A DNA stretch of 64,000 nt from positions 496,001-560,000 of the forward strand of contig NC_087083.1 of assembly GCF_026151205.1 (NCBI RefSeq), in the 5' to 3' direction. Source of the DNA: Bolinopsis microptera. Its lineage: Eukaryota; Ctenophora; Tentaculata; Lobata; Bolinopsidae. A model generated the notes under the pieces. The model did not search any database and was not told the origin of the DNA. It saw only the letters and a program-made list of their open reading frames with translations. Shown here in pieces: positions 4,846 to 64,000 of this stretch; positions within the stretch are counted from its first letter, which is position 1; every line of letters begins with the position of its first letter. The translations under genes were made by a program, and so were the position numbers.

Positions 4846-7800
4846 CTATTCCGTCATGTTAATCTTCCTCTTCTTCCTTTTCATTTTAACCAACTCGTCC
4901 ATTTCTTCGGGCAGTTTCTTCCTCCATTTCTCCACCTTTTTCAGCTTGTACTTACGGTGTGGCGCTACTTTCTTTCTGATCTCCAGCATGTTTCTCTTCT
5001 GGAAACTAGTAAATCTGAGGATGAGTGTTTTAGAGGGTGGATAGTTAAGGGGAGGGGAGGGGGGGGGGGGGGGGGGGGGGAGGGGGGCCGGGGGGGGGGG
5101 GGGGGATGGGGCAGGCAAACGTTAAGTCATAAGTGCAGAGAACTTTATGGGAACCTGAATCATTTATAAAATACAAATATGATATAGAATTAAATGAGAC
5201 ATTAGATTTAGAACAATTAATAATTAATTAACAGCTACTTAGCGATTACTTAAAAATTAATTAACAATCAATAAAAAATAACTAACAATTAATTAACTTA
5301 AAAAGTGCAGTCTGTCTACCTGTCCTGAACGTTGTTTGCAGGAGTAACTAGTTGTCGAAGAGAAGAACTAACTTCCTCAGGTAGCAGGAACTCTGGCTCC
5401 GCGCCCTGGGAGAGTGGAACAATTAGTAAACAATTAGTAAAACAATTAGTAAACAATTAATGAAACAATTAGTAAAACAATTAGTAAACAGATCATGTTA
5501 GATTTGGAGTTCCTCAGTGGAACGTTAAGGGTCGTTCACATATCGTCACCTACAAATAGAAAGGGCCTATGTCGACATAGGCCCTTTTAAAAAACTATAC
5601 CAGCACGAAAATCTGTGGAACCATACCTACCATATCCCCAAATATAAAGTCAATTGGGTGAAAATTGAATATCTTCAATTTTTTAAATGGGCCTATATTA
5701 ACATAGTCCTTTTTCAATAAACTGACCTGCTACTGATATTGATAAAATAAAAGGGCCCATGTCGACATATGCCCTAACAAATTGTTGGAATGTGATGTTT
5801 TTGATGATGTTTTTGAAAAGAAGAAAGGGCCTAAGTCAACATATGCCCTAACAAATTGTTAGAATGTGATGTTTTTGAAAAGTAGAAAAGGCCTAAACTC
5901 AACATATGCCCTAACAAATTGTTGGAATGTGATGTTCAAAGAAATAAATTTGAAAGTTAAAAGGACCTATGTACACATACGCCCTGTACCGATTCTCACA
6001 TGTAAGATGTTTCAATTAATTAAGAGGGGCTTATGTATCGAATGATGTTTTAAATAGGCCTATATCAAAATTAAAACAATTACCCCAATTAATTGAAAAG
6101 CTTCAGGGACATTTTCAGAGTGTAGGCCAGTCATTCTTTCCATTTAGGATACAAAGAAATCAAATGTCTAATGCCTATCCTAAAGTTAATTTAATAAATT
6201 TTAAAATAGGTTTTCATGCATTATCTCAAAACGACTTTTTTCGAAATAAGCCCTTTCTATTTGTAGGTGACGATATTACGTAATCATTTTTTGGAACATT
6301 TTTACCCCCCCCCCCCCCCCATTCGCAATCAGCTTTAAACATAGCTATTGTGTCAAAATTACACTAGCGTAATCATTTGGAAACCTCCCTCAGCTGATTA
6401 CGTAATATGTGAACGACCCCTTAACACAGATCATGTTAGATTTGGAGTTCCTCAAGGGTTTATATTGCTATATTGGGGCCGTTGATATTTATCGTATTCA
6501 TAGATGATAAGCCTGAGGTGGTCAGCTATGGTACAAAAGATGAATCATGAGAGGGTCGGGGTGGAAGTTAAGGATTAAACGAAGAAGAGTTGCTAAGTGG
6601 GATTTGAAGGGTCTTTAAGTGAATCAAGGGGTTCCTTGGTATAATGATTCAATCTTGGGAGGAATATTAACTAATCCCCATTACCAGGCTGAAATTATCG
6701 TCATATTAACCAGTTTCTAAAAAGTGAGCCTCTTATAATTAGGGATTGTTCACATATATAAGGTTATCAATGAGGGATGGGATTTCTAAATGGTTATGCC
6801 AGTGTAATTTGAAGATAACGTAATATTATGTGAAAAACCCTAAAGTAGTCTGGAAAGATCAAATTAACCAGGGAAAAAAACACTTACTATAAACTTGCCG
6901 GGTCCGTATTTCCCAGGTCTAGTCTCATTTATGGTTTTCTTAGCTTGTCTCTCCAACGTCTGCTCCTCCCTCTCGTTCTCCTCTTTTCTTATCTCCTTTT
7001 TGAGTGCTTTGATTCTGTTGATTTGGTGAAGATACTGCTTGGTTTCCTTAGCTGCCGCTGCTTCTTCCGTCTGGGTAAATTATTATTTTATTATTTGTTA
7101 TTATTTTTTATATTATATCATGCATTGATTGGTCTAAGGTCTTTGAGACATAGATTTTTTTACTATTACAACTTTTAGTTCTAATTCTAAACTTTAGAAC
7201 AAGATCTCCCGAGTAAACGTATTGCTTTGTTATTTTAATTCTATTAGATACTTTAAACCTGCCATTTGGGAGTCAATGCTGACCTTCCTTCGATAAAATA
7301 GATTAAATTTGACTGACCTTTAATTTCTCGGCTTTTTCTTTGTTTCGTTGAGAGCGAGTTTTTCTAATGTAGACACCACTTTTACACACGTCCTCTTCGT
7401 TAACTTCCGGCTCACTTTCACTTTCATGTTCGACTTCCTTCAGCCCGATACTCATTTCTTTAATGTAATCCTCCTGAAATTAGTATTCCTTCAGCCCGAT
7501 ACTCATTTCTTTAATGTAATCCTCCTGAAATTAGTATTTCTTCCTTCAGCCCGATACTCATTTCTTTAATGTAATCCTCCTGAAATTAGTATTTCTTCAG
7601 CCCGATACTCATTTCTTTAATGTAATCCTCCTGAAATTAGTATTTCTTCGAAAATGTACCAACAAACTAGCGATAAAATTGTATCGAGAATTTGAATTTA
7701 GAATATGTGCATAGTTCCTCACTTCTAAAAACCTGATAATACTGATGGTATGAATGTTTAAAAACCTTGATTTGAATACTTTCAACACTAAACTATCTAG

Positions 7801-10800
7801 CAAATAATTTGAGATAAAAAAGTTGCAGCTCTTCAATCTTCATTTTATGAAGCTGTTAAAGATCCAAAATAAGACAAATACTGTTTCAAACAACTTTATG
7901 TGAGGAAAGGGGGATATATGCTCCAGCACGTTATGAACTTTTAAGACAGTTTTTGTAATGCTAATATTATATTATTAGATATTATTCATATCTTCTCAAT
8001 ATCTAAAATATCATACATCAAATAAAATATTATTTCTAGATATTATTGGTCTTTCATTTGGTCGATAGGAGAAAAAAAATTACCTAAATTTACCTCAGTT
8101 GCTAGGGGACTGATTGCGGTTGCTATGGTGGTCATGGTAACGTAAAAACTTGAGAAGTCACCATTAAACCTTAGAACTACCTATAACTTTTTACAGGATA
8201 AAGTTTAGACAAATGGAATAAAAGTTATCCAAAAATAAGATCCTCGTCAGACTTTTGTAACACCCTGTACCTCGGTAATTTGAATAGGAGGAGCAGCATC
8301 ACGTGTTGCTTTCGCTTTCTCTTTCTCTCTCTTCTCCTCCACGTCAAGTGCCGATTGTAGCAAGTCCTGGAGAAGACATTTTAAGTTAGTGCTCATTAGA
8401 ATGATACTTTTATCTTATTCGATATATCTTTGACAGTTGGTAATTTTGATGTTGTAAAATCAAAAATGCAATATTTTTCCGTTCACTCTTTTGCAAAAAG
8501 GAAATAGCGGAAGGTTACGAATGGTGGTTTTTGCAGAAAAAGAGGGATTCTGTAGCTATTGACCTAGAAATATAAAATACCTGATTAGTGATTATCAGTA
8601 AACTAGAAATGTAAAATACCTGATGATCAGTGAAGGTAGGGTTGTAGGAAGATCCCGGATGTGGCACTTCCACAGCACTCAGTTTGGTGTCTGATCCTTT
8701 GTAGAAAGCTGGTGGCAGGAATGGGGGTGGTAAACAGGGGTCTAACCTGGGGAGAGCAATTAGTGAAACAATTAGTAAAACAATTAGTGAAATAATTAGT
8801 GAGACAGTTACTAAAACAATTAGGGATCGCTCACAATTCACATAGGGGTCATTCACATAATATTACGTAATCGCTTTTTGGACAATTTTTACCCCCCCCC
8901 CCCCCTCTTTAATCAGTTTTACACATAGCTATTGTGTCAAAATTACACTAGCGTAATCATTTGGAAACCCCCCCCCCCCCCTCAGCTGATTACGTAATAT
9001 GTGAACGACCCCATATTAACATAATATTACATCTAGGGAAGGGGGTCTGAAAAAATTCACACAAATGTGTAAAGCAAGGTTGTTAAATACGTATTAGGAG
9101 GGAATACGTATTGGAATACGAATACGTATTAATCCTCGAAAATTGACGTATTACGAAAAGGTGTGTCGTGCGCGCAAAAAAATTGTTTGCTTATCGGATT
9201 ATCCATGAAATTTGATTACAAATTTAAGTTATCATGTATAACTGCACTCCTTTAATGCATGATCAATGATGAGGGTGGCGCGCAGCTGTAATGTTTAATT
9301 TTGACAAATGACAAATCAGCGTATTACGGCGTATTATGGCGTATTCGTGGACGTATTTAACAATCCATAGAAATTACCGTATTACGGCGTATTACGACGT
9401 ATTCTTTATTGGAACCGAATACGTCGTATTATTTCACGAAAATTTGACGTATTTAACAACCTTGGTGTAAAGTGGCCTACGGAGGGGTACCCTCTGGTTC
9501 CATGGGCAAAATTTCACTCAAATTTTTCACTCAAATAAATTTTTTCCCGAATTTTTGGCTCTCTCTTTTCGATTTACTGAAATATTTGAGCTAAACTAAT
9601 TTGTGACCGTGCTCACGTATTAAATTTTTCTCACTCAAACAATATAGTCGCTGCGGGCGGTCTTAATCGAGATTATAATTGCATTTTGTTGTCCCGAATC
9701 CAAGTTTCTGTTTGTGTTTTTGTATCCTAATTAAAACTCGAGTGGCTGTAGTCCTGATCCTGCCCGACACCACCAATACGCGTATCGATTACTGTGTGCA
9801 ATGGAACAGGTCACCCGTATAATTTTATATCGCAAACAAATTTTTTCACTGTATCATTTTCCCATGGAACTAAAGGGTTACCAAAGGGTAAACAAAAGGT
9901 CCCTTACTAAAAATATACACAATATATTAATTAATTAAATATTTAATTGCTGATAACACTCACTCCTTGGTAATTTTCTTCTCAATACTGGCGCCCCAAA
10001 TATCGTACACACAACCACTCTTCTTGTTGTCGGAGTTGGTTACCATGGAAACATCTTGCTGCGGCTTCTTCTTCTTTTTCTTCTTACTTGGACCAAGCCG
10101 TCCTACGACAGGAGCAACTCTCGTGTCAATCTGAATGGAAGTCCTGTCATAAAGATTAATAATTCATTTGTTTGCCAATAATTCATTCCGTCATTGGTAC
10201 AGTAAAATTAATTTTTTAGTTGAACCGTCCATTTTTCGTGGAATAAAAACAGGGGCTTCAAAAATCGACAAAAACATTATTCCCTAAATCAATTCATTTT
10301 TGATGACGGAAACGTTGTTGCTCTTCATTTATTCGTAGCTGCTTAACTATTATCGACAAATGAGCTCAACCAATTCTTAAAACATATTATCCTCTGGTAT
10401 TAAAGTGTCCTGGTTCCCACAAGCTAATATTGTAGTTGTACCAATCATCCTCCCCACCCGGATAAACAGAAACACTCCTGATCATCCCGTCTGATTTATA
10501 TAGAGTCCCGTCTTACCCGGTTCTATCCGACCTTCTAGAAGGAATCACCATCTTCCTACAAACTGCCTGGCTAGTTACATCTTATCACTTCTACCTACAA
10601 GTACAATATCTGACCAAACGAGGTGTAACATTCCCCTAAATGCTGTCTGGATCGCTTTGCCCCTTCCTGCAAACAGGAACTCGATGTTCCACTTTCAATC
10701 TCCACTCGTTAACATACTACTCGTTACATACTAACTGGTATTAATACTACACATCTGTAATCTAACAAATAAAACCCGTTTACATCAAATTGATAATAAA

Positions 10801-36345: not shown

Positions 36346-37116
36346 TATATCAAAACTATTAAGTAAAGTTTTCAGTAAACTCTTCTAGGAATAGAAGACT
36401 TTATTTTATTAAGATTTCTTAGTTAATTACACCGGATAATCCATTTACTTTTAAGATATTATACTTGTTGTGGGAGAATTTGTATACTTTACTAGATAAG
36501 ATAAGTAATAAATGTTAAAATTTATTTATCTATTTATTTATAAGTGGTATTATATATGGTAGTGACCACAGATTTTCATTTAATTTCCATGGGATTTGAA
36601 TGCAAATAATTCGAAAAGAGGTTACATTATAATATAAAAACATCAAATTTAATTACATACAATTTGCATCGAAAAGAAATTCAAAATATTTAAACAAATC
36701 GTACCGAAACGAAATCAAGACAGCGACAAAATGTGTAACGTATACATTTCAATCAATGACATTTGATCACGTTGATTACTGAACTTACATTTTTGTATTC
36801 ACATAATTAATTTTTTCGAACAAAGATATCTTCAATTTCAACAATTATCCAGAAGACATTATTGTCTTGAGTACAATAATAATAAGTTTTGAAGAACCCG
36901 CAAGTCACAACACCGTACATAGAAAAATTGTAGTTCCAAAATCATTTCAACAGTTAATAAATTGTGATTGTTCAGTTTTTACTGACACATTCCAGAACCA
37001 GATCCACATAATTCAAAACATTCCACATCCCTGCTAACTGTCCAGCAGTTTTAAATCACACAACACAAACCCCAAACAGCTCCAAGTTACAAACCAATAA
37101 GACCACTGAAACACAG
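36346..37116. other. Spacer between VPS11 and the CSTF3 repeat array
   Basis: AT-rich, with no supported ORF. It contains the VPS11 3' UTR (minus-strand AATAAA candidates near 36,517-36,538 and 36,403) and presumably the CSTF3 promoter. Confidence 0.5.
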
Positions 37117-49100: not shown

Positions 49101-52100
49101 AGAAGTAATGGTGAGGATTGAATAGTAATGAGGGTGGAAACGCGCAACTACAAAAAAAATCATTAGCTTCCTCCCTGTGACCACAGGCTTTTTTGATAGC
49201 TTTCTGCTTAAGTGCTCTTACCATTGTGACTATATCCAAAAGTTAACACACGATTTTTTAAGCGGAGTGCTGGATTGCAAGCGGAGGGCTGGGTTGCAAA
49301 GGTAGACTGATGTATATGTCAAGGAAGACGGTGTCTTTCTTTTTAAGGAAGCATTCATAAAATTAATTCTTTGTTCTATTATTGATTTATTGTTCATAGA
49401 TAATAGGCGTACAAGCATTGATAATTAGATTAATATTCTTTGATCATTTGATCTTCATTTGCTAATTTTGTCAGAGTGTTGCATCCATTTTAATTTTGTA
49501 TCCTTTTCATTAATCGCTAAGTTCTATAGATTTCGAATTGATGCTTCTTGGTGCGGTAATATTTTGCAAATAGTGCAGTTTTTCACCTGCCTAAAACTTG
49601 TTTATGTGCGGTAAATTTGGCGACAAAAAACACAGCAATTAAATAGAACAATTCGCAAAATTTGCAGCCTTTAGGTACACTCGATCTCAGGTTGGCTTAT
49701 TGGACAGCGTAGTATGTAACGTTGCCTTACACGATTGTTGAGTTACTAAAACAAATAACCAACAAGGTCTTACATTGAGATTCCTGACAATTCAAGATGT
49801 ACAAATCTAGAATTACGGTCCTAATAATAGAAGATTTAACAATTAAACGGGCAAGGGCTCACTAGTTGAGAAGGTTGTGAGCATAATAATATTATATCAG
49901 AGAAGTACAACAGATTAAAATTTCCAACACATTGTCCAAATTCAAACGCATTATAATATTATGTACATTGTACAAGCTTAAGTGACTAAAGTGACTAAAG
50001 TGACTCAATTTCAATCTGTTGAGGGATTGCAATCCAGTATGACAAGTTCGTTTGTACCAAGATTCACCCTCGATTGTTTTTTGTTAATCAAAATTACTGA
50101 TAGTATTGAAAGTCGATGCATTATCAACTTGCCATCTGATAATAATAATAATGAAATTTCTGGGAATATTTTCAGCGAGGAATATCATTGTTCTTTGTTA
50201 TACGTTTGGTTCCAGATCATGGAGTTTTGCCCTGAAATTTAAACACATTCTGAATACCACACGATTTTAGAAGTTTTAGGTTATAAAGTCAATTTTGAGT
50301 TATTAACAAAAGTCACTTGGGGGTCTTTCAGAGACAACCTCTTTATGTTTAAGTATCATGTACATACTGTATAGTGTATAATAGGGGTCGTTCACATATT
50401 ACGAAATCAGCCGAGGGGGGAGGAAGGGGGGTTTCCAAATGATTACGCTAGTGTAATTTTGACACAATAGCTATGTGTAAAACTGATTACGGAGGGTGGT
50501 GGGGGGGGGGTTAAAAATTCTCCGAAAAGTGATTGCGTAACAACGGTCCCATATTGGTAAATATTGTTAAAACAGGCGCGAATAACCTTTACCTGCAGAT
50601 ATTTTGACAACATGACAACATGTCAGTATTAATGCTTTTCATACAAAGTTACAACAAAGTCAGTATGTTTTTAACATTAAAATTGTCTATGATATTACAA
50701 AGTTACAAATTTTGTCCTCACAAGGTTACCTGTTTCCAATAGTGAATTAGCCGTGTGTTTAGTGTGTTTTACTTTTTAGTATCAGCCATTTCTAGTCATT
50801 TCCTACTACACAACCAGGGGATTATAATCCTTGGACGAGTTGCACTTTTCACGTTTGCCTTGTCAGAGAAACTTTATAAAAGCAAGGCAATTATAATTGT
50901 TGGAGGAGTTGTGTGTTTATTTGTCAGCCAATCAAGGAACTTGTTTATAAGTTAGGGATAATTTATTAATTCATGTAATTTATTAATTTATATGAATGCC
51001 ACTCCATGGGGTGCAGGTGGCAAGTCCCCATACATCGTGGTCCGGTAGTTTCATTGCGTCTTAATATAAGACTTATTGACAATGTCAGATGACAATATCA
51101 TCTGCTAAAACCAGTGTGAGTTTAACTCGACGCACCAATAACGTCGAACACAAAATTTAGACATGACAATTATAGATTATTCTTAATCATGCTTGCTGCA
51201 TGATGACTTCATGATAAAATTTAAACATGTCCTTTTAATATTTTAATATAGTTATCGGTGTTTAATAGTGAATTAGACAATATTTAATATAATTACAAAT
51301 GGCATCGTCTTCCTTACAAAGTTACAGTGATAGTCATTTCCTGTCAACGCGTTGTGTAACCTAGTTTAGTCAATGTTTTACTTTAAAATGGAACCAGATT
51401 TTTAAACTTCTCATTACACAAATATATTATACAGATTCTGTTTATTTTTGTGAGTATTGAGTTTCTCCACTGACACTTGACGTCATTAAACTGTCACGTG
51501 ACACTTTTGAATCTTGTTATGCAAAGCTGACTTCTCATCTGACCCCCCTTATTGTCTCACAGGAACCATGAACACATCTGACGTCATCATCAGAGCACTC
51601 CCCCCTCGCTCGGACCTCTACAATCCCCACATTAAATCCTACCCAGACTACCCTGGTATGGCAACACCCTTTACACCTCTCGACTTCTCACTCGGGTCCC
51701 TTCTCTTTCTCTGTGCTCTGGTCGGTATCCCTGGTAACATCTTCGGACTCTTCTACTTCACCTTTAAGACGCGCAGAGACAGGGTTACCTTGCTTTACAT
51801 TGTTATCTGCGGTGTGGACACTATGACATCCTTCAGCCACCTCCCGGTAGCTATAGCGCTGTTCCGAGGTAGAAAACCAGGGGTTTTTAACAACCATCTC
51901 TTCTGCGCTCTCTGGGAGTCCCTCTACACAATCCTCCAGAAGACCTCTATATTCCTAGTCCTCCTCCTCAGTGTATCCCGTACCATAGCAATAGTGAAAC
52001 CCTTCTATAAAATCCGGATTATCACCGTCATGTGCAGTTTGTTGGCGTACGTGTTTATCTTAATCCTGATACCGGTGGTTCAGTACGTGGTAATCCCACT

Positions 52101-55100
52101 CCGGGGCGAGTTCAAGTACTCGTGGGATGGTGCTTACTGTTACTATAACTTTGAGATGAAGTTCGAGCATGCTGTTAATCTGGTTATGGTGGGGCTGCCT
52201 CCTATTCTTACTTTTATCTCCTTTTTAGTGTCTATTATCAGGCTGACAGCGGATAGGAAGAAGGTAGGACCAGGAGCAAAGGCGAAAGAAACCCAGAAGT
52301 GGAAGTATCGAGCGAGTGTTACGATAGTGCTGTTTACCACCTTGTTCTTAGTGTGTAATCTCCCCCTTTTCATCAACATGCTGCACAATATGACGACACG
52401 TTTCTTTGGGGTGGACTACCCAGGGGTATACTTCGGTACACGGTTCATGTACTGGTATTCTTGGCATGTGGCCAAGATGGAGAGTGTGGTGGTGAATGCG
52501 GCTCTCAATCCTGTGCTGTATTTCTGGAGGATGAACAAGTTTAGGGTGTGGTGTGTGGATGTGGTTATATGTAGGGGTTTGAGGAAGGAGGAGGAGGGGA
52601 ACAAACCTGGTTTTACTCAGGTACAGAGCTCGACGGTGTTTATGCCGGAGAAAGTGGAGTTAGAAAAAGTGTTGGAAAATGTTGAGAGTTAGCATGTGGT
52701 CAAATTATCGGTTGAAGTGTTGTCGATTAAGCCAGTTTTATAGACGAGCTAGAGCTGTCAGTTATTATTGATCGTATTATTTTGGGATAAATCATAAATA
52801 TAAAATGTTTTAAATGGTCCTTAAAACTTTAAAAACAAGTTATTTCGTTCCTAATCTCGCTTTAATGACTTGAATGTACATCTACATGTTGAAGCGTGTA
52901 ACAATATTAGAACTTGCTTACGACTGTAGACTTAAGACTGTATAAATAGTATTTATGAAGTCTCTATGTTTATAGGGATATTGAATAATGAATATTAATG
53001 AATAAAATTCATCGAAAAAAGGACTTGTTTTGAAATTTGATACAAACTTGAGTTAAAACTTTATTAACCCATGTTCCATAACAGCTAATGGTTCATTTTG
53101 TTACTCAAAAATATATAACTTATAAGATGTGATTTAGACAAGCTGTTTTGCTAAACATTATTAGATAATTATATAATAATGTATAATAATAACGTGCAGT
53201 TTTCAACCCTTTTTATAACCCTAAAAGCCTAAACTAAAATCTGTAATTGACTCAATCTTGAAAAATATTATCAAAACGTCATAAACATTGGGTTTTATTT
53301 TTCTTATCTTTTAACTTCAACAAACAAGATAAATATACTTGATCCCTGATAAAGATAAAACCATTCCCCCCGCCCCCCCCCCCCCCCCTCTCCCCCGGGC
53401 CTCCACCCCCGCAACAGACCTATTAAATCTAAGAATGCACCAGTTGTACCTGCTGATGCCCCCCCGGCCCCCCCCCCCCCCCCCGGCCCCACCCCCTTTA
53501 GTTTAACACATACCTGCTGATGCCCCCCTCCCCCACCCCCTTTATTTAAACACATACCTGCTGATGCCCCCCCCCCCCCCCGGCCCCACCCCCTTTACTT
53601 AAACACATACCTGCTGATGCCAGGAATGTTTACAGAGGAGATGAACAGCAGGTAGGTTCAGTTTCTTCACACACTGAGTACACTTGTTTGTTTGGAAGAT
53701 TACTGGTTCTGTCTTTAGCTTCTTTATCTCTTCCCGCATTTTCTGGGCAGATGAGAAAAATATATGAGCTATAAAATTATACCTGTAGTGCACAAATAAT
53801 CGGTGGTTTAAAAAAAGTTGTCAATGAGATCAGCAGATCAGCCACACAATCCAATCATTACCGAACCACTTTTTGTCGATTTTACGGTCGAAAATACGTC
53901 TCCCAGTTCCCACTCTGGTTAATTACTAATCACCTTGATTATTAATTACTAATTGCTATTTAAATTACTAATTACTCACAGTAGCTTCCTCAGAATATTT
54001 CTTGATCAGGATCTCATTCTCATTTGTCTGCTCTTCCTCTATCTGTATGTGTCGTGTTATGTAGTTCATCAGCACTGATATGGGAGTTTTAGCGTTCTCT
54101 GATAAAGCTTTTACCACCTGCAAAAAGGGAAATATTGGTTATTTTTAGCTCATATTATATTACTACATACTCTATTAACAGTTTTTGACTGATTTGAATG
54201 TCCTGCACAGCAGATCGAAGCAAATTATTTACTATTTTTATTGTATTGCTGTGTAAATTTGATTCTAATTATAATTCTAATTTTAATATCTGGGTATTTT
54301 AGATTTAGGAAAAATAACATTTTCTAATTTAGTTATTATGCTTTTACTACCTGCGAAATAATAATAAATAGCAACAAAGCCAATCCTCAGTATTAAAAAA
54401 TCGAAAGCGAAACCGTTAATCGATGAAACACTACATACATTGTTTAATGTATTATATTATGTAATCAATTAGCAATCAATTAGCAATCAATTAGCGAACC
54501 ATTAGAGGAGGAAGAAGGTTCTTCTGTTCGATGTACTGTAGGATCTCAGCCACGTGTTCTCTACTCTCCTCGTCCTCCCGAACTGCAAAATACCTGAACA
54601 AAACAATTAATAAATTGGGAAAATTAATTAATTAATTAAATTAATTAATTAATTAAATACGGTGAAATGTCAGTCACCCTTATCTCCTCGTCCTCCCGAA
54701 CTGCAAAATACCTGGACAAAACAACAAAACTTAAAAACGTACACCTTATAATAATAACATTGTTTGATACATATTTAGCCTCACAAAAACAGTTGCAAGC
54801 AATCTCAACGAGAAAAAAGTTATCACATTCAGAAATGTCAAAGAAATTGACAAAAATTGTTTTGCGGATAATCTTGCTGAGGAATTGGTTACTGTAATGG
54901 ATCCTGAGGGTCTATCACAAGCTGAAATGCCGTCATTTGAAAGCCGCATCAGCCTATACAACTCTAAGTGCCTAACTGTGCTGAATAACCATGCTCCTCT
55001 CCTCACAAAGGAAATCAAAGAACGTAAGTCTGCCCCTTGGTTCGATGGTGAATATAAAGCACTTAGAAGCCAAAGAAGAAAAGCCGAGACAAAGTGGAAA

Positions 55101-58100
55101 ATCTCCGGATCTTTAACTGACAAGAAACACTATGAATCAATCAGAGAGCAGTGCACAGAACTCTCAGACAGGAAGAAACATGAGTTTTTCAAAGTCGAAT
55201 TCATAAAGCATTCCTATTCTTCTAAGAGTCTTTTTAGATTTATGGACACCTTTCTTGATCGGGATAAAAGCATTGTGTTGCCTTCGTCGGAGTCTCTCAA
55301 GGACACAGTCGAAAACTTTAACGTATATTTTCAGGAGAAAATAAAGGCAATACGTAATAACTTTGATCATGTGGAGTCTGACGATCAAACGCCCTCTTAC
55401 TGCGGAGAAAAACTAGCTGAGTTCTCTCCAACTACTCTAGAAGAACTAGAGGAGATAATCAAGGCATCTGAGATCAAGTCTTCTTCAATTGACCCTCTAC
55501 CTGCAAACATCTTTAAAGAAAACCTTGAGGTTCTACTACCCGTCTTAGTTGACATAGTAAATGCTTCATTATCTTCTGGCAGTATTGATGGCGCTAAACT
55601 AGCTCATATCACACCCCTGATCAAGGGCCAGGGATTAGATAGTGATAATCTCAAGAATTACAGACCAATATCTAACCTTAGTTTTGTAGGCAAGTTGATA
55701 GAAAGAGTAGTGCTCAGGCGTCTAAATGAACATCTAGAAAACAACAACCTGAACATCCCACAGCAGTCTGGATACAAATCAAAACACAGCACCGAGACTC
55801 TGCTTGTGAGAGTTGTTAACGATCTACTCATTGCATCTACAGAAAGCAAGGCAACTGTTGTTCTTCTCCTAGATCTCAGTGCAGCTTTTGATACAGTTGA
55901 CCACTGCAAACTTCTGAACATCCTCAGAAATGAGTTGGGAATAACAGGGACAGCTTGGAAATGGTTCAGCAGCTTCCTCACAGGTAGATGTCAAACGATT
56001 AAAGTTGGAAATGAGGAATCTTATGAGATAGTGATTAAGTTTGGAGTCCCACAGGGCTCTGTGCTGGGTCCGGTCCTGTTCAACATCTACATTCGCTCTT
56101 TGTACTCAGCAGCACATGATTTGAACTTCTCCATCCAGGGTTACGCCGACGATCATCAGCTGTATAAAAGTTTTAAGCCAAACGAGGAGCCCACCGTCCT
56201 TATCAACAATGTTCCCAAATGCTTCCAAGAAATTAATGACTGGATGAAAAAACATTATCTACAGCTCAATGCAGGAAAAACTGAGATTCTTGTTTTTGGG
56301 ACACCGCTTGTTCTCCAGCAGCTGTCTATAGGGGGCGTGTTTGTTAACTCTGAGACGTGTGTAAGGCTGTCACCTGTTGCAAAGAACCTCGGATTTCGTC
56401 TCGACTCTCAACTAAACTTTGGTGAGCAAATCAAGCAACTTAAAACATCGTGTTTTCTGAAACTAAGAGACCTTGCTAAGATGAAAACATTCCTCACAAC
56501 CAAACAGATGGGAACACTGACTCAAGCAATTGTAATCTCATCGCTTGACTACTGCAATGCGCTTTACTATGGTTGTAGTCAAGCCTCAATTACGCAGCTG
56601 CAGAACATTCAGAACCGAGCATGCCGTCTGGTTTTTGGATTAAAGAAGAGAGACTCAGTCGAGGAGAAGCTCAAATCCCTTCATTGGCTCAAGGTGAAGG
56701 AAAGGATTGAGTTTAAGTTATGTTTACTGATTTTCAAAGTAGTCAATGGTGTTGCTCCTGTATATCTGTGTGATCTAGTAACATTTGTTAGTTCGAGTAG
56801 CAGAAGAACTTCCTCCTTACACCTACCTGTCGGATCTACAAGATCGCACCCAAGAGCGTTTCAGACTGTTGCTCCGAAAATCTGGAACCAACTACCAATT
56901 GAAATTAAGACTTGTTCTGATGTTGATCTGTTCAAAACATTATTAAAAACTCACCTGTTTAAGAAAAGTTATGGCATGAGCGATTAATTGACAATATAAC
57001 TTTATGTTATTTGCTTAAACTGTTTAGGATGCAACCTAATGTCATGATCTTTTTGAACTTATTAGCTATTAGACTGTTAGCTCGCTTCATAAGCATGTCA
57101 TCTTCGTTCCAAAACTTTTTATGTCCTATGCATACAATCCTTGATAGTTATCTTGATCTAGTATCTTTGTTTCACACAATAGAGCATAAGTTTTGTGGTT
57201 TATCCACTGGGCTTAGAGTTTGTGTTTAAGCTACCAAATTTTATTATTATTATTATATTCCTCGAACAGGTGATCAAAGCAAGTCATGTCAGAATTTATT
57301 ATTTCAATAGGGCACTCAGTGACTGAAAAATAAGCCCCAACGTGTGTGTACTGACTTTTGCTCTTTAGGCTGCCAATCTTTTAACCTAGACGTAAATACC
57401 GCTGGTATTACCAACCTGTGATAGTCACGTTGACAATTAACTAATTAACTAAATAACTAATTAGCTATAGACAGCTGGTATTACTATATTACTAACCTGA
57501 GAGCTTGTACCCAGAGTGATGCCTCCTCAGTACCAAGCCTCCAACACAGGTCCATTATACTCCTGCAATAAGAGTGGGTAGAGAAGACAAAAACAGGAGA
57601 AGTAAATTTAAAGCTTTAAAGACATATAATAAATAAATAATATATAAATATAATCCGATATAATACGGTTCAATCTAATAAAAGAACATTTAAAGATGGC
57701 CAACAGGGCTCCTATTCTCAATATTTCGGTATGGTTATAGCTCAGATCATCACAAAAACTGTAATACCTCGTGGTAAAAAACCAAGAAAGTGACTATCAC
57801 GAAACTATCACGTGACTGAAGTATACACTAACTGAAGTATCACGAAACTAACTTATACTCGTTGTCCTCACAGTAACAATCCAATACGTGTTGGTAAAGA
57901 CCACGCTTCTCACAGAGTATAACAATACCAGGTTGGAGTCTGTACAGCTGCATTAGGAGCAGGGCGTGGTCAGGGTCATACCTGGTGATTAGCGGGCAAT
58001 TAGTGTGCAATTAGTGAGCAATTAGTTGCAGATTAGCGAGCAATTAGTTGCCGATTAGTGACCAATTACTGACTTTTTACCCCATTAAGCTATTAAGTGT

Positions 58101-61100
58101 AGACAGGTAATCGACTGTTTGGCCATCTCTTTTTTTAATAGTCAGCAATTACCGAATTAACTCATCGACCAATTAACTAATCGACCAATCAACTAATTAA
58201 CTAATTAACCTTAATTAACTAATTACCTAGCAGTGTCGTTCTGCAGCATCTCCACTACCTGTTCTGTTCTCTTCTCCCTACACTCTTCCTTCTGGGAATC
58301 TCTTAAGTACAGCTCCAGCAGCGCATTATAAACTGAGGAAATTGGGAAAATTAATTAACTAATTAATTAATTAATACAGTGAAATGTCACTCACCGGACC
58401 AGCCTACTCGGAACCAGTCAACTATCGGACCATTAAACTTCCAGAAATTTTCAAAAGGTGCCGAAAATTTGATTCCAGGGTGCTGCCGGATTAATATCCA
58501 ACGTCTTAAAAACTGTTATTCTAGTTGAAGCAACTCGGACCAATAAAGTCCCGAATTTAATGTCTTTCGGACCAAATTATTCCAGTAGTGCGATATAAAC
58601 TAAGGAAATTGGGGATCACTATAATAGTTTATTGCAGTATTGGAATTTGGATATTATAATATTTTAAATGTTACGCAGTTATGCTTCAATTTCAGCCCAG
58701 TTTCTGATTATCAGCCCACTTGCTGAATATCAGTGTAATATTCACTAATAAAGTAATGCATAGCATAATATAACAAAACATTAATTAATAAGATCACCTT
58801 GAGAAGATGATTCAGGTTGTCTATCCACGATAGCTTCGAGAAACAGTATCAGACAGTCATTCCTGCAGGAGGATGGAATGTTACTGTTAGCTACAAAATA
58901 CCACAGGGCACCTTAAAGTCAACCTCACTCTACCTAACCATTTTACATCAACATATTTTATCCTCATTTCATTCCACTAGTCAACCTTTCTTCACCTCGC
59001 TTTACCTCACTTTACCTCACTAAATAACCTCATTTAACCTCACCTGTTAACAAAGAGAGGTATGAACTCCTCTGGTGGAGGTGGATCCTCAGTCTCCCCA
59101 CACAGCTGTACTAGTTAACCTCTCTTTACCTCACTTTACCTCACTAATTAACCTCTTTTAACCTCACCTGTTGACAAAGAGAGGTATGAACTCCTCTGGT
59201 GAAGGTGGATCCTCAGTCTCCCCACACAGCTGTACTAGTTAACCTCTCTTTACCTCACTTTACCTCACTAATTAACCTCTTAACCTCACCTGTTAACAAA
59301 GAGAGGTATGAACTCCTCTGGTGGGGGTGGATCCTCAGTCTCCCCACACAGCTGTACTAGTTAACCTCTCTTTACCTCACTTTACCTCACTAATTAACCT
59401 CTTGTAACCTCACCTGTTAACAAAGAGAGGTATGAACTCCTCTGGTGGAGGTGGATCCTCAGTCTCCCCACACAGCTGTACTAGTTAACCTCTCTTTACC
59501 TCACTTTACCTCACTAATTAACCTCTTTTAACCTCACCTGTTAACAAAGAGAGGTATGAACTCCTCTGGTGGAGGTGGATCCTCAGTCTCCCCACACAGC
59601 TGTACTAGTTAACCTCTCTTTACCTCACTTTACCTCACTAATTAACCTCTTTTAACCTCACCTGTTAACAAAGAGAGGTATGAACTCCTCTGGTGGAGGT
59701 GGATCCTCAGTCTCCCCACACAGCTGTATTAGAAACTCTGTCATGTCCTCAGGAAGGTGGTCCATCAGCTGGGAGGACAAGTTTACAACAATTAGTGAGG
59801 TTAAGTGAGGTTAAGTTGGTCAATCGGGATATTGTGCACACTGTGCAGCTAATCAGAGTGTAATCTTATTAAAATCAATTAAATCTGATTATTTAGAATC
59901 TAATCTAATGTAGGTACTAGATGTTAATTCTTTAATGCTAGATAACAGTTATTTTATCTATGCAAAAGATACTGATGTTCATTGCAATATGATTGATATC
60001 CCAAGTCAATCTAGCTTACTTACAGCCATCAAATAGATACTCAGCAAATTTTACTTTAACTTTTTAAACTTTTTAACTGTTTAATTTTAATTGCTTTTTT
60101 AACCTGTTTTCCGAAGTTCTTAACGTTTTCCTTCTTCTTATCCAGGCTAGGTAACTCATTAATGTAATCAAGTGCAGTTCTGTAGTCCTGCTTATCTTCT
60201 ATTTGTATGTGAACGTACCTGTCGGGTAAATAAGTGATTAGCTAATTGGATAATTGGATAATTGGATAATTGGATAATTGGATAATTGGGTAATTGAAGA
60301 ATTGGATAATTGAAGAATTGGCTGAGCAGATGATGATTGACGAATTATCATATTATAGATCGTTATGATACATTTCGGAAATTCTGTATGATTATTCAAT
60401 AAAATCTCGTTTTTCTCTTGAAAATGTCATTAGAACTTTACTTATAATGTTATATTAGAAACTGAAGACTAGTAATTATCTTACCAATCGTATTGGTTGA
60501 ACTTCTTGGCTAGGTAAGCAGCGTCATCAAAATAAGTAGCTTGTCTGCAAACCTTAGCAGGGTACAATATTACATTACTTACAATATTACATTACTTACA
60601 ATATTACATTACTTACAATATTACATTACTTACAATATTACATTACTTACAATATTACATTACTTACAATATTACATTACTTACAATATTACATTACTTA
60701 CAATATTACATTACTTAATTATTATAATATTGAATAGGTAAATTAACTATATAATTAACTGTATATTGTGCGCGGCAGAAATACAATTTTGAACATTTCA
60801 GTTCAGTTTATTTTATCCTCTCATAGAATTAATATAGAACAGGTTACAGGCCTAAGCTGCTGAATACTTTTTTTTAAAAGCTGAGCTGTATATCTGTGTT
60901 AAGAGATTAGCATATTTATTACCTTAGTTCGTTTAATTATGGCTCGTTAAAATTGGCAGTTTTTCGGAAATTCTGCCATATTTTTAGCCGTCATTATTTT
61001 TAGCCGTCACAATATTATCCGCCATAAATAAACGAACTAAGGTGACTATAATTAACTGAATTAACTGAATCCAACTCACCTTGATAGCAGTCTCCACATC

Positions 61101-61418
61101 CCCCCCCCCCCCCCCCCCCCCAATTAACTGAATCCAACTCACCTTGATAGCAGTCTCCACATCCCCCCCCCCCCCCCCCCCAATTAACTGAATCCAACTC
61201 ACCTTGATAGCAGTCTCCACATCCCCCCCCCCCCCCCCCCCCCCAATTAACTGAATCCATCTCACCTTGATAGCAGTCTCCACATCAAAGTTCAGTTCCC
61301 CCTCACTTCTAATAAACTGCTCTAACTTTTGCACATTCTTTAGTTTAGTGTAACAGTTTAGTAGCAGGGTTGTGTGATCTTGGTTCGCTACGTTTGCTTC
61401 GTGTAGTGCTTCTAGGTA
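37117..61418 (-). CDS. VPS11: VPS11, HOPS/CORVET core subunit, C-terminal 587 aa (15 exons); 5' part off the window
   Basis: Scaffold and RING-finger subunit of the HOPS and CORVET tethers for endosome-lysosome fusion. Exons from upstream: 61266-61418, 60485-60552, 60104-60218, 59662-59768, 58798-58862, 58227-58332, 57859-57981, 57497-57562, 54500-54593, 53980-54117, 53611-53742, 39023-39115, 38389-38473, 37456-37667 and 37117-37323; every phase agrees. Family landmarks are DHTTLLLNCYTKLK, FDVETAIK, SLWVQALRYFAVREDEESRE, and the C3H2C3 RING KCTQC...CKHSWHQQC...CPIC. The RING is split between CKHSWHQQ and CFEELADLEE by a 14.5-kb intron containing two plus-strand GPCR genes. PFTAVADFFAKGVYNK matches the usual C-terminus. 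A novel tail follows: a PGL run, then five NPF motifs (DNPFA, NNPFA, QNPFA, NNPFA, DNPFG). The N-terminal beta-propeller half lies beyond 64,000. Confidence 0.94.
37540..37592 (-). repeat. 12-bp coding repeat (PGL run) in VPS11
   Basis: Four to five CCTGGTAAC-type units encode PGLPGLPGLPGLPGL, the start of the tail added after the conserved VPS11 C-terminus. Confidence 0.85.
37820..38310. repeat. 31-bp palindrome-rich minisatellite in a VPS11 intron
   Basis: About 14 copies. Each unit joins ACTGTATATACAGT (or ACTGTATACACAGT), ACACGTGCAC and ATGACA. The unit combines two palindromes, and the array starts about 80 bp after the donor of exon 38389-38473. All three minus-strand frames stay open over it. 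Confidence 0.95.
38583..38785. repeat. 22-bp minisatellite with CACGTG in each unit
   Basis: Nine copies of AGATTAGCCACGGTCACGTGTC. It lies in the VPS11 intron upstream (transcript sense) of exon 38389-38473. Confidence 0.93.
39410..39500 (-). other. tRNA-like segment, probably a SINE relic
   Basis: The minus strand carries a B-box-like AAGTTCAAATCCCAG preceded by a possible anticodon arm (CTAGATTTTTAGCC) and GGGCAGTCGACTTGCCC. The cloverleaf is incomplete, so this looks like a decayed tRNA-derived repeat. Confidence 0.35.
40255..40316 (+). repeat. Left member of an inverted pair flanking the LDLa-GPCR gene
   Basis: TTATAATTC, GTCTGT repeats and GACCGCCCACGTGCAA. The exact 16-bp end recurs inverted at 46341-46356, and a diverged direct copy lies at 49,035-49,085. 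Confidence 0.7.
40329..40445. mobile_element. Partial GTTCACATA-family foldback copy
   Basis: Two long G tracts surround the conserved core CCGAATGATTACGCTAGTG and CAATAGCTATGTGTAAAACTG, but both outer ends are missing. Confidence 0.75.
40511..46236 (+). CDS. LDLa-repeat G-protein-coupled receptor with PSDHS-repeat tail, frameshifted
   Basis: Exons are 40511-40604, 41678-41865 and 42121-46236. Exon 1 encodes a signal peptide ending LLQLIILTPAVTVAS. The ectodomain is cysteine-rich with LDL-receptor class A modules: CHKHQLCDGVEDCGDGSDED, LPELCDGLETCG, VCDLVDNCGDSSDELNC and KCDGTANCEDWSDEC. A seven-helix region follows at about 43,880-44,950: TM1 near AFGIGFLATVFNLVVVI, TM3 end LAILSISRVCG (in place of DRY), TM6 VCWIPFVIVSIL with the CWxP motif, and TM7 NSVINPFIYS. 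This is a class A receptor of the LDLa-bearing type; the ligand is unknown. Frame 1 ends at TGA 42660-42662 and the other frame continues, so a single-base shift lies at about 42,600-42,670. From 45,013 the C-tail is about 400 residues of PSDHS-like repeats to the stop. It is nested in the VPS11 RING intron. AATAAA at 46580. Confidence 0.85.
40622..41000. mobile_element. Truncated CAGGGTGGGCC MITE in GPCR intron 1
   Basis: The left end TACAGGGTGGGCCAAAAGTC is followed by internal family segments in rearranged order (TCACTGAGTGCCCAATTGAA, TTTGGATAGTCGGATCGAGC). No right end was found. Confidence 0.7.
41875..42002. repeat. (TTTAA)n microsatellite in GPCR intron 2
   Basis: About 25 pentanucleotide units with TTTTA variants, filling half of the short intron 41866-42120. 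Confidence 0.95.
45130..46230 (+). repeat. 15-bp coding minisatellite (CCTTCTGATCACTCT)
   Basis: More than 70 units encode P-S-D-x-S/F with x mostly His or Pro. It forms the cytoplasmic tail of the LDLa-GPCR. Because the unit is a multiple of three, long frames are open on both strands; only the plus frame continues a real protein. Confidence 0.95.
46341..46390 (-). repeat. Right member of the inverted pair flanking the LDLa-GPCR gene
   Basis: TTGCACGTGGGCGGTC is the exact reverse complement of the end at 40300-40315. The continuation (ATACAAACAGAGAG...GAATTATAA) matches the GTCTGT/TATAATTC part of the left member. Confidence 0.7.
50384..50550. mobile_element. Foldback element, GTTCACATA family
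   Basis: Ends GGGGTCGTTCACATATTACG and, diverged, GTAACAACGGTCCC. The two G-rich tracts and central CACAATAGCTATGTGTAAAA are in the opposite orientation to 8845-9012. Confidence 0.83.
51568..52692 (+). CDS. Class A G-protein-coupled receptor, intronless coding region, 374 aa
   Basis: I place the start at ATG 51568 (MNTSDVII); the open frame begins earlier only through a non-ATG codon, and TTGTCTCACAG|GAACC just before it could be the acceptor of a 5' UTR intron. N-terminal sequon NTS. TM1 contains GIPGNIFGLFYF, TM3 ends VLLLSVSRTIAIVKPFY (SRT where DRY is usual), TM6 has LFLVCNLPLFINML and TM7 NAALNPVLYFWR (NPxxY type). Cysteines before TM3 (LFCALWE) and in extracellular loop 2 (GAYCYYN) would form the conserved disulfide. 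It resembles orphan rhodopsin-family receptors; the ligand is unknown. The gene is nested in the VPS11 RING intron, opposite strand, about 920 bp from exon 53611-53742. A candidate AATAAA lies at 53002. Confidence 0.92.
   Translation: MNTSDVIIRALPPRSDLYNPHIKSYPDYPGMATPFTPLDFSLGSLLFLCALVGIPGNIFGLFYFTFKTRRDRVTLLYIVICGVDTMTSFSHLPVAIALFRGRKPGVFNNHLFCALWESLYTILQKTSIFLVLLLSVSRTIAIVKPFYKIRIITVMCSLLAYVFILILIPVVQYVVIPLRGEFKYSWDGAYCYYNFEMKFEHAVNLVMVGLPPILTFISFLVSIIRLTADRKKVGPGAKAKETQKWKYRASVTIVLFTTLFLVCNLPLFINMLHNMTTRFFGVDYPGVYFGTRFMYWYSWHVAKMESVVVNAALNPVLYFWRMNKFRVWCVDVVICRGLRKEEEGNKPGFTQVQSSTVFMPEKVELEKVLENVES
52693..53358. other. GPCR 3' flank inside the VPS11 intron
   Basis: Probable 3' UTR to about 53,020, then AT-rich DNA with no supported gene. 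Confidence 0.5.
53365..53625 (-). repeat. Poly-C blocks with three extra copies of a VPS11 donor
   Basis: The authentic exon end is at 53611 (minus strand GGCATCAGCAG|GTATGTGTT). Three more copies of the exon end plus donor lie downstream in the intron at about 53,449, 53,513 and 53,558, each separated by G homopolymers (minus strand). The first and last bracket a GGCCCCACCCCCTTTA spacer. Confidence 0.9.
54660..54725 (-). repeat. Extra copy of the 5' edge of VPS11 exon 54500-54593
   Basis: TCCTCGTCCTCCCGAACTGC plus the acceptor GTCCAG|GTATTTTGCAG is repeated about 117 bp upstream (transcript sense) of the real acceptor. The copy directly borders the CR1-like insertion. Confidence 0.85.
54780..57257 (+). 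mobile_element. CR1-like LINE, 5'-truncated, near-complete reverse transcriptase
   Basis: Open frame 54885-56987 (700 codons), with coding sequence continuing upstream as VITFRNVKEIDKNCFADNLA, separated from earlier codons by a 1-nt deletion in an A run near 54,811. RT motifs are NLKNYRPISNLSFVGKLIE, LLLDLSAAFDTVDH (A), GVPQGSVLGPVLFNIYI (B) and GYADDHQLY (C, YADD). The C-terminus HWLKVKERIEFKLCLLIFK and PVYLCDLVTF is typical of CR1/L2-group elements. The endonuclease is almost wholly missing. The 3' end is a short ATT microsatellite (57,239-57,257). It lies antisense to VPS11 in the intron between exons 57497-57562 and 54500-54593. The long intact RT frame suggests fairly recent insertion. 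Confidence 0.92.
57258..57366. mobile_element. Right-end fragment of the CAGGGTGGGCC MITE family
   Basis: Contains CCTCGAACAGGTG, GGGCACTCAGTGACTGA and CCAACGTGTGTGTACTGACTTTTG, all in family order. The GGGCCCACC end has decayed. Confidence 0.6.
58375..58615. mobile_element. Possible pogo/Tigger-like relic
   Basis: CAGTGAAATGTCACTCACCGGACCAG with repeated CGGACCA motifs recalls pogo-type ends. No matching inverted end is clear. A related CAGTCACCC segment lies at 54,660. Confidence 0.35.
59041..59747 (-). repeat. 124-bp array: five extra partial copies of VPS11 exon 59662-59768
   Basis: Each unit carries, on the minus strand, a possible acceptor TAGTACAG, then 62 nt of the exon (CTGTGTGGGGAGACTGAGG to TTTGTTAACAG) and the real donor GTGAGG, followed by a GGTTAAA-rich spacer. 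The authentic full exon is the rightmost copy. Copy positions (GTTAAC start) are 59046, 59170, 59292, 59416, 59540 and 59664. Confidence 0.95.
60566..60720. repeat. 17-bp minisatellite upstream of a VPS11 exon
   Basis: Nine units of CAATATTACATTACTTA. On the minus strand each holds TTGTAAGTAATG, a good donor-like GTAAGT. It sits beside the acceptor of exon 60485-60552. Confidence 0.92.
61062..61290 (-). repeat. Three extra in-frame copies of a VPS11 exon end and donor
   Basis: Minus strand units read GATGTGGAGACTGCTATCAAG|GTGAGTTGG, separated by G homopolymers. The authentic donor (exon edge 61266) is GTGAGATGG. Extra exon edges fall at 61203, 61143 and 61080, spacings 63, 60 and 63 nt, so the frame stays open across all copies. 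Confidence 0.95.
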
Positions 61419-61630
61419 CTGGAGGAAGTAACTTTTGTTAATTAATAACTTTAATTTATTAATTAATTGTAATTTTGTCGAAAATTCGATTGGTCATAAT
61501 CGGATCTGCAGTCTGCACTAACATCATATAACAAGTTTTCATTAATAAGAACTTTTAACTGCGAGAAAAGCACCAAATGAGACGCCAGACCCAACTTTAT
61601 CAAACTAAAGGTATCTAACTTATTTACAAC

Positions 61631-64000
61631 TAAATGAGTGAGGTTATGTAGAAATTAATAAGAGATGGTGTACCTGTAGCTGTGTGAGGTTATGTAGAAA
61701 TTAATAAGAGATGGTGTACCTGTGTGAGGTTATGTAGAAATTAATAAGAGATAGTGTACCTGTGTGAGGTTATGTAGAAATTAATAAGAGATAGTGTACC
61801 TGTGTGAGGTTATGTAGAAATTAATAAGAGATAGTGTACCTGTGTGAGGTTATGTAGAAATTAATAAGAGATGGTATACCTGAATTAGGTTATGTAGAAA
61901 TTAATAAGAGATGGTGTACCTGAATTAGGTTATGTAGAAATTAATAAGAGATGGTGTACCTGAATTAGGTTATGTAGAAATTAATAAGAGATGGTCTACC
62001 TGAATTAGGTTATGTAGAAATTAATAAGAGATGGTGTACCTGAATTAGGTTATGTAGAAATTAATAAGAGATGGTCTACCTGAATTAGGTTATGTAGAAA
62101 TTAATAAGAGATGGTGTACCTGAATTAGGTTATGTAGAAATTAATAAGAGATGGTCTACCTGAATTAGGTTATGTAGAAATTAATAAGAGATGGTCTACC
62201 TGAATTAGGTTATGTAGAAATTAATAAGAGATGGTGTACCTGAATTAGGTTATGTAGAAATTAATAAGAGATGGTGTACCTGAGGTGAGTATGTAGAAAT
62301 TAATAAGAGATGGTCTACCTGAATTAGGTTATGTAGAAATTAATAAGAGATGGTGTACCTGAGGTGAGTATGTAGAAATTAATAAGAGATGGTCTACCTG
62401 AATTAGGTTATGTAGAAATTAATAAGAGATGGTCTACCTGAATTAGGTTATGTAGAAATTAATAAGAGATGGTGTACCTGAATTATGTTATGTAGAAATT
62501 AATAAGAGATGGTGTACCTGAATTAGGTTATGTAGAAATTAATAAGAGATGGTCTACCTGAATTAGGTTATGTAGAAATTAATAAGAGATGGTCTACCTG
62601 AGGTGAGTATGTAGAGATTAATAAGAGATGGTCTACCTGAATTAGGTTATGTAGAAATTAATAAGAGATGGTGTACCTGAATTAGGTTATGTAGAAATTA
62701 ATAAGAGATGGTGTACCTGAATTATGTTATGTAGAAATTAATAAGAGATGGTGTACCTGAATTAGGTTATGTAGAAATTAATAAGAGATGGTCTACCTGA
62801 ATTAGGTTATGTAGAAATTAATAAGAGATGGTATCCCTGAGGTGAGTATGTAGAGATTAATAAGAGATGGTCTACCTGAATTAGGTTATGTAGAAATTAA
62901 TAAGAGATGGTCTACCTGAATTAGGTTATGTAGAAATTAATAAGAGATGGTATCCCTGAGGTGAGTATGTAGAGATTAATAAGAGATGGTCTACCTGAAT
63001 TAGGTTATGTAGAAATTAATAAGAGATGGTCTACCTGAATTAGGTTATGTAGAAATTAATAAGAGATGGTCTACCTGAATTAGGTTATGTAGAAATTAAT
63101 AAGAGATGGTGTACCTGAGGTGAGTATGTAGAAATTAATAAGAGATGGTATCCCTGAGGTGAGTATGTAGAAATTAATAAGAGATGGTCTACCTGAATTA
63201 GGTTATGTAGAAATTAATAAGAGATGGTCTACCTGAATTAGGTTATGTAGAAATTAATAAGAGATGGTGTACCTGAGGTGAGTATGTAGAGATTAATAAG
63301 AGATGGTCTACCTGAATTAGGTTATGTAGAAATTAATAAGAGATGGTCTACCTGAATTAGGTTATGTAGAAATTAATAAGAGATGGTGTACCTGAATTAG
63401 GTTATGTAGAAATTAATAAGAGATGGTATCCCTGAGGTGAGTATGTAGAGATTAATAAGAGATGGTCTACCTGAATTAGGTTATGTAGAAATTAATAAGA
63501 GATGGTCTACCTGAATTAGGTTATGTAGAAATTAATAAGAGATGGTCTACCTGAATTAGGTTATGTAGAAATTAATAAGAGATGGTGTACCTGAGGTGAG
63601 TATGTAGAAATTAATAAGAGATGGTGTACCTGAGGTGAGTATGTAGAAATTAATAAGAGATGGTGTACCTGAATTAGGTTATGTAGAAATTAATAAGAGA
63701 TGGTCTACCTGAATTAGGTTATGTAGAAATTAATAAGAGATGGTCTACCTGAATTAGGTTATGTAGAAATTAATAAGAGATGGTCTACCTGAATTAGGTT
63801 ATGTAGAAATTAATAAGAGATGGTCTACCTGAATTAGGTTATGTAGAAATTAATAAGAGATGGTCTACCTGAATTAGGTTATGTAGAAATTAATAAGAGA
63901 TGGTCTACCTGAATTAGGTTATGTAGAAATTAATAAGAGATGGTGTACCTGAGGTGAGTATGTAGAAATTAATAAGAGATGGTCTACCTGAATTAGGTTA
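61631..64000 (-). repeat. 40-bp array of a VPS11 exon end, about 58 copies, running off the window
   Basis: Minus strand unit: TAATTTCTACATAACCTAATTCAG|GTAGACC. The first units near 61,690 retain CATAACCTCACACAG, coding HNLTQ, the expected residues just before YLEALHEANVAN of the next exon. The array therefore derives from the 3' end of the preceding VPS11 exon, whose body lies beyond the window. Variants of 39 bp (GAGGTGAG) are interspersed. Confidence 0.95.

Follow-up and report, generated by a model that had tools for sequence, protein, structure and literature searches.

Tandem arrays built from exon–intron boundaries, known as mirages, have been described in amphioxus in Adh3, the globins BflGb6 and BflGb9, TnC and PGBD5 (PMC3087553, PMC3902484). 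As presented in those reports, the units measure from 10 to ~160 bp, many carry AG/GT and they homogenise inside each cluster; the copy number in BflGb6 is 6 on one haplotype and 3 on the other, regular splicing is reported to be undisturbed and the Adh3 array shows somatic instability (PMC3087553, PMC3902484). Tandem duplication also underlies the AGGT model of intron gain (Rogers; Hellsten et al. 2011, as cited in PMC4974935), in which an exonic AGGT segment is duplicated and a new intron results. Related cases are the tandem duplications of proto-splice sites in Drosophila (PMC2891723) and the potato RdRp gene, for which intron gain by tandem duplication across an intron–exon boundary is described (PMC4974935). 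Here we analyse a stretch of 64,000 nucleotides (hereafter the window, C12:496001–560000) from the lobate ctenophore Bolinopsis microptera, the assembly of which comprises 264.65 Mb in 232 contigs, 13 of them large. In the window, exon edges of NOP53, CSTF3 and VPS11 have become tandem arrays.

The amphioxus mirages, as far as those reports describe them, are the closest precedent, one that the first-pass annotation of this DNA did not name. As in amphioxus, the Bolinopsis unit spans the exon–intron boundary of its host gene, copy number varies and units homogenise. Unlike the amphioxus examples, the arrays lie in a ctenophore, number seven in VPS11 alone, reach ~129 or more copies and are known from genomic sequence and one annotated protein. 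They are the same kind of array as the lancelet mirages, in another phylum, dense and possibly above chance. We know of no earlier ctenophore report of junction minisatellites, from a literature search confined to open-access papers. Our preferred reading, which we consider probable, is that they are mirage minisatellites: tandem duplications that straddle junctions, are neutral and are tolerated by splicing.

Junction arrays in VPS11, CSTF3 and NOP53

All three genes run on the minus strand of the window, as do the arrays described in this section. CSTF3 was identified by a match to 6uro_E (E = 8.7e-155), VPS11/Pep5 by matches to 7zu0 and to the NCBI protein P0001 (‘VPS11 homolog’, Bolinopsis microptera) and NOP53 by PF07767 (E = 2.8e-32) over four exons that we joined. 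Exons, labelled V, C and N by gene, were placed with splice phase and tblastn, using approximate human protein queries. GT/AG is present at all 63 of the junctions placed in this way. In what we call the own-flank test, each junction’s 36-mer was then matched against that junction’s own 700-bp flanks; the flanks of junctions 3 kb or more away served as the control.

At 11 of the 63 junctions, the gene’s own flank holds a copy that matches at 23 or more of 36 positions and beats every control; relative to the flanks of other junctions, these copies are far from chance. Both exon edges are affected, with six donors (V1d, V4d, V11d, C9d, C7d and Nad) and five acceptors (V6a, V9a, V10a, C1a and Nca, with C1a an acceptor by motif only), to which the donor of exon V0 is added below. 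V2d (21/36) and C10a (20/36) beat their controls narrowly and are left out of the 11. The first-pass annotation had listed seven sites with tandem copies of the host gene’s own exon edge, and all seven are confirmed as real junction duplications: six by the own-flank test (V1d, V4d, V9a, V11d, C1a and Nca) and the seventh, at 61.6–64 kb, by VPS11 exon V0 running into the same 40-bp units (C12:601501–602800). The AG|GT that it noted at six of the seven is also correct, with NOP53 (CAG|GAG) the exception. Five duplicated junctions (V6a, V10a, C9d, Nad and C7d) go beyond that list; they are weaker, and Nad and C7d are borderline, with only a few nucleotides of exon included.

VPS11 carries seven of the arrays (V0d, V1d, V4d, V6a, V9a, V10a and V11d). 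The largest is the V0 donor array (61641..64000), detected with Tandem Repeats Finder (TRF), in which a 40-bp unit consists of the last 15 nt of exon V0, the donor and 25 nt of intron. TRF counts 59 units in the window and 44 more in the adjoining stretch L004, up to window position ~65768. The array touches no exon within the window or the 10 kb that follow it; an exon-less origin was ruled out by exon V0 of a second VPS11 copy (described below) and by the contiguity of exon V0 with the units. Exon V0 of the window’s gene lies at C12:602.5 kb and ends in ...RRIHNLTQ, from which it passes without a break into the 40-bp units; 26 units, the exon’s own end included, adjoin it in the fetched stretch (C12:601501–602544). 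The V0–V1 intron is ~45 kb long, with the array at both of its ends, 103 units on the V1 side and at least 26 on the V0 side. The exon sequence is retained by units close to the exon and by some of those at the far end; most others share an altered form (71 of 77 anchored units).

The other VPS11 donor arrays are shorter. Exon V1 (YLEALHEANVAN...DVETAIK; 61266..61418, placed with tblastn and P0001) leads into four copies of GATGTGGAGACTGCTATCAAG|GTGAG... with poly-G fillers between them (61059..61286; a TRF-type array, also found by the own-flank test). The window spacings of this array are all multiples of 3; a selected in-frame protein repeat was nevertheless rejected, as this periodicity does not hold in the second VPS11 copy. 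At exon V4 (59662..59768, placed likewise), a 124-bp unit of ~70 nt of exon end, donor and intron is present six times (58994..59732). V11 has four copies of GGCATCAGCAG|GTA... with G-rich fillers (53469..53621, own-flank test). The acceptors, found by the same test, are each present twice: at V6, a diverged second copy (28/36) lies 267 nt upstream (58313..58613); at V9, two copies of the acceptor and exon start lie 118 nt apart (32/36; 54564..54724); and at V10, an old copy (24/36) lies 233 nt upstream (54099..54368).

The V6 and V9 acceptor copies have a common spacer (GTGASTGACATTTCAC...), as would be expected if a dispersed, introner-like element had inserted at junctions. The 16-mer core of this spacer, the only one searched, has 23 genome-wide matches with at most one mismatch versus 24 for its reversed control, so a dispersed element was rejected for V6/V9, and each array is built from its own host exon. 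We regard insertion of such an element as highly improbable.

In CSTF3, the first coding exon, C1 (34903..35065; tblastn and splice phase), is joined by an array of ~27 units of 49 bp (35039..36353), each reading ...TTTATAG|GTAACTAAAAATGGCTGACCCCAAG and containing an acceptor-like site, the start codon and MADPK. The array very likely repeats the true translation start, because a related 714-amino-acid protein, P0121, also begins with MADPK. The TTTATAG|GTAAC site could serve as an acceptor in cis or in trans-splicing, or as no acceptor at all. Further into the gene, an 18-bp array starts 3 nt inside exon C7 and covers its donor (30059..30278; 23/36, borderline), and the C9 donor has one extra copy 38 nt downstream (25105..25174; 26/36). 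In NOP53, identified through PF07767, the Nc acceptor occurs four times as ATTTCAG|GAGGATTACATTAAAG... with spacings of 51, 55 and 51 nt (7435..7649; own-flank test), and the Na donor has one extra copy 39 nt downstream (8563..8624; 24/36, borderline).

Each of the 11 duplicated segments, and likewise that of V0, spans or adjoins a junction that already exists, and none is purely exonic. This bears on the AGGT model, which the first-pass annotation had taken to be at work here as intron gain in progress. The arrays resemble the AGGT and proto-splice-site cases, as far as the sources describe them (PMC4974935, PMC2891723), in that the tandem duplication adjoins splice-site-like sequence, and AG|GT is present at five of six duplicated donors and three of five duplicated acceptors. 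However, the model requires an exonic segment and creates an intron, and Bolinopsis shows neither; the potato RdRp gained a new intron, whereas none is visible in the Bolinopsis arrays, in which copies go far beyond two. Nor is AG|GT significantly enriched at duplicated junctions (8/11 versus 23/52 at the others, p = 0.11; 9/12 with V0d, p = 0.11), and donors fit AG|GT by consensus regardless. With no significant enrichment and no exonic segment turned intron, the AGGT model is not what is seen, and we give it very little weight: existing introns are lengthened, and no new ones are seen.

Two copies of VPS11

C12 contains two nearly complete VPS11 copies in the same orientation, ~250 kb apart, at 549.6–619.8 kb and 802.0–839.2 kb. 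Nearly all P0001 exons match both places (59 matches), with a 23-residue exon (residues 144–166) matched in the second copy only; completeness is judged here on the exons of P0001, the model of which lacks C-terminal exons. Window positions 50381..61665 correspond to C12:798870–808866, part of the second copy, in aligned pieces that are 90–96% identical with indels between them. The aligned stretches, mostly intron, are typically 5–6% divergent, and exons V1–V11 are 97–100% identical, with one amino-acid difference seen. We considered the second copy as a partial pseudogene and rejected this, given the matches of nearly all P0001 exons to both places and the intact exons V1–V11.

Array length differs between the two copies at three of the seven arrays and agrees at four. 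The V0 donor unit is present ~129 or more times in the window’s gene and once in the second copy, where the exon end CATAACCTCACACAG|GTACACCATCT occurs a single time; V4d has 6 copies versus ~15 and V11d 4 versus 2. V1d (4 and 4) and V6a, V9a and V10a (2 and 2 each) are equal. The V4 units are homogenised inside each VPS11 copy, by different, copy-specific variants. Because three of seven arrays differ in number at an intron divergence of typically 5–6%, some of the turnover is fast. The earlier suggestion that exon edges are still being made into minisatellites holds to the extent that at least some of this activity is recent, on the evidence of the three differing arrays and the copy-specific V4 units.

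The two copies could be either paralogues or two haplotypes placed apart in the assembly; if they are alleles, the case for true length polymorphism is stronger, not weaker. A duplicated haplotig of this kind, or collapsed or inflated repeats, could also produce the arrays as an assembly artefact: copies that differ by 5–6% in introns and lie 250 kb apart could be haplotypes, and array numbers can be misassembled. Against this, the units carry copy-specific differences, the same sites are duplicated in both VPS11 copies, unrelated loci have such duplications too and there are no N gaps in the window or in L004, L005, L042 and L043. We consider an artefact improbable.

Several neighbouring features were noticed, their resemblances judged by eye. 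Around 2.7 kb of the V8–V9 intron (54764–57487), retroelement-like, is without counterpart in the second VPS11 copy. A Helitron/PIF1-helicase-like open reading frame (ORF; L043:6202–7998) lies a few kb upstream of the second-copy exon V0. A long single ORF resembling a G-protein-coupled receptor (51511–52689, plus strand) is antisense inside the 14-kb V11–V12 intron and falls inside the stretch common to both copies. Outside the arrays discussed here, a 15-bp array leaves several reading frames open (among them one of 409 amino acids at 45080–46306, plus strand) and adjoins a 1,220-amino-acid LDL-receptor-like ORF (42574–46233, plus strand).

Proposed splicing tolerance and duplication by chance

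Our preferred reading, that the arrays are neutral and tolerated by splicing, can be put as a series of steps. Short tandem duplications are frequent in the Bolinopsis genome. The joints between copies, judged by eye, show microhomology at V4 (CTA) and NOP53 (GAAG) and G runs at V1 and V11, and poly-G fillers of ~20 nt separate the units at V1 (61059–61286) and V11 (53469–53621); these fillers, missing both from the exon and from where the last unit ends, are clearest at V1. Such joints suggest slippage or end-joining as the source of the duplications. When a segment straddling a junction is duplicated, the extra copy would sit between the true junction and the remaining intron. If the spliceosome keeps to the exon-proximal site, the mRNA would be unchanged and the duplication neutral, so junction-straddling duplications would survive. 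Duplications within exons would presumably be purged, which would leave arrays at exon edges and in introns, where they may then expand, shrink and homogenise through unequal exchange or slippage.

The annotated protein P0001, which matches the second VPS11 copy at a diagnostic V8 residue, is consistent with use of the exon-proximal sites. It joins V1–V2, V4–V5, V5–V6, V8–V9 and V9–V10 without array-derived residues, and these five are the exon–exon joins of the protein for which the second copy has a duplicated junction.

Two kinds of observation weigh against this reading. The first is the end of P0001 (...HSWHQQVCV), which reads through the exon-proximal V11 donor and so counts against regular use of that donor in the gene model. 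The second is the frequency with which duplications span junctions. Distinct local duplications, with arrays collapsed, were placed randomly within their own intron, and those containing a junction were counted. The window events were listed by hand from TRF and own-flank output, with V10a, Nad and C7d not scored as junction hits, and 8 of 31 span a junction versus 2.3 expected (P = 1.8e-4); with V0d added, at a hand-estimated placement probability of 0.19, this becomes 9 of 32 versus 2.5 expected (P = 4.6e-5). The window was selected for its arrays, which makes its P values optimistic, and other loci were tested for this reason. In those independent loci, 7 of 53 duplication clusters span a junction versus 3.1 expected (P = 0.029; four or more hits, P = 0.38). 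The excess may in part come from selection of the window and from slower decay of the exonic copy, and something that favours junctions may contribute as well.

With regard to the gene model, further C-terminal exons of the window’s VPS11 copy lie at 39.1, 38.4 and probably 37.3 kb, beyond the end of P0001.

Frequency of junction arrays across the genome

The independent sample comprises 187 kb: 13 loci at round coordinates (L006–L018) and others (L022–L041) retrieved with the V6/V9 spacer 16-mer, which starts with GTGA[G/C]T and is therefore partly donor-like. A further locus, L001, was fetched by a donor pattern and left out of the placement test. Exons were predicted with a finder trained on the window, where, at threshold 13, it sets both ends correctly for 27 of 45 exons and one end for 3. 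Elsewhere it reports 76 exons versus 17 in reversed sequence at threshold 13, and 63 versus 5 at threshold 14. The exon-edge array tests used a looser threshold of 11, at which nine arrays in the other loci contain an exon edge versus none in reversed sequence (L001 included, with no hit there).

Junction arrays recur in independent loci. Four cases were judged clear by eye: a donor array of ~1 kb in L007, donors in L008 and L018 and an acceptor present five times in L039. The L007 array (6.3–7.3 kb) was spotted by eye and missed by the automated test. Pfam places a Sushi domain in L018 above the cut-off, gives matches for L007 and L008 below the cut-off only and returns no match for L039. Ab initio exons that looked by eye like ORFs of transposable elements or repeats (L006, L012, L015, L017 and L023) were not used as cases.

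A process specific to junctions would explain an excess directly: junctions could be hot spots of generation or retention, for example because R-loops form there, because breaks accompany splicing or because spare sites or longer introns are selected for. The excess over same-intron placement, in the window and elsewhere, speaks for this, as do strong donor 8-mers: of their 172 distinct sites, 9 lie in arrays, versus 6 of 291 for reversed 8-mers (~2.6x, p = 0.10), and these arrays reach 44 copies. This comparison covers the first 100 listed places per 8-mer on C1, with the plus strand only for AGGTAAGT and AGGTGAGT, and the control clusters and the AGGTATGT places counted by eye. A donor scan of 83 TRF units with a position weight matrix gives 5 units at the top threshold versus 1.1–1.3 expected, three of the five from the window, and 15 versus 9.2–9.8 expected at threshold 5. 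However, the 8-mer difference is not significant and one of the three motifs is flat (1/88 versus 1/98 reversed among the places listed). Two of the seven independent hits are doubtful, L009 with an array in coding-like sequence and L011 with exon-scale sushi copies, and without them the independent excess is not significant. Overlooked exons lower the expected number, and copies of exon sequence, expected to decay less quickly than those of intron, should be more readily detected. We therefore consider a junction-specific process unlikely, while still the strongest of the alternatives to neutral duplication.

A junction excess of two- to fourfold is possible, not secured. The first-pass annotation had called chance overlap of minisatellites with splice junctions implausible; this was too strong, as placement alone predicts ~2.5 junction hits in the window and the independent loci give 7 of 53 versus 3.1. 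A few junction arrays are to be expected where short introns, frequent tandem duplication and the presumed purging in exons meet.

The four clear cases in 187 kb, from loci that were not fetched for splice sites, extrapolate to ~5,700 genome-wide (95% confidence interval roughly 1,500–14,500). That Bolinopsis contains thousands of mirages, arising at splice junctions at more than the neutral rate, is a suggestion that we make tentatively and with more doubt than conviction.

Mirages have been reported from a few lancelet genes, as far as the cited papers describe, and a dense case in a ctenophore suggests that such arrays arise generally where frequent tandem duplication is combined with splicing tolerance. 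The locus offers a tractable setting for studying intron growth and gain, with dozens of true splice-site copies beside the real one and two gene copies with unlike counts. Junction arrays may also mislead automatic gene annotation. If mirages do number in the thousands and form faster than neutrally expected, the amplification of junctions would be a major and ongoing contributor to intron length and to the supply of spare splice sites in ctenophores, paralleling lancelets.

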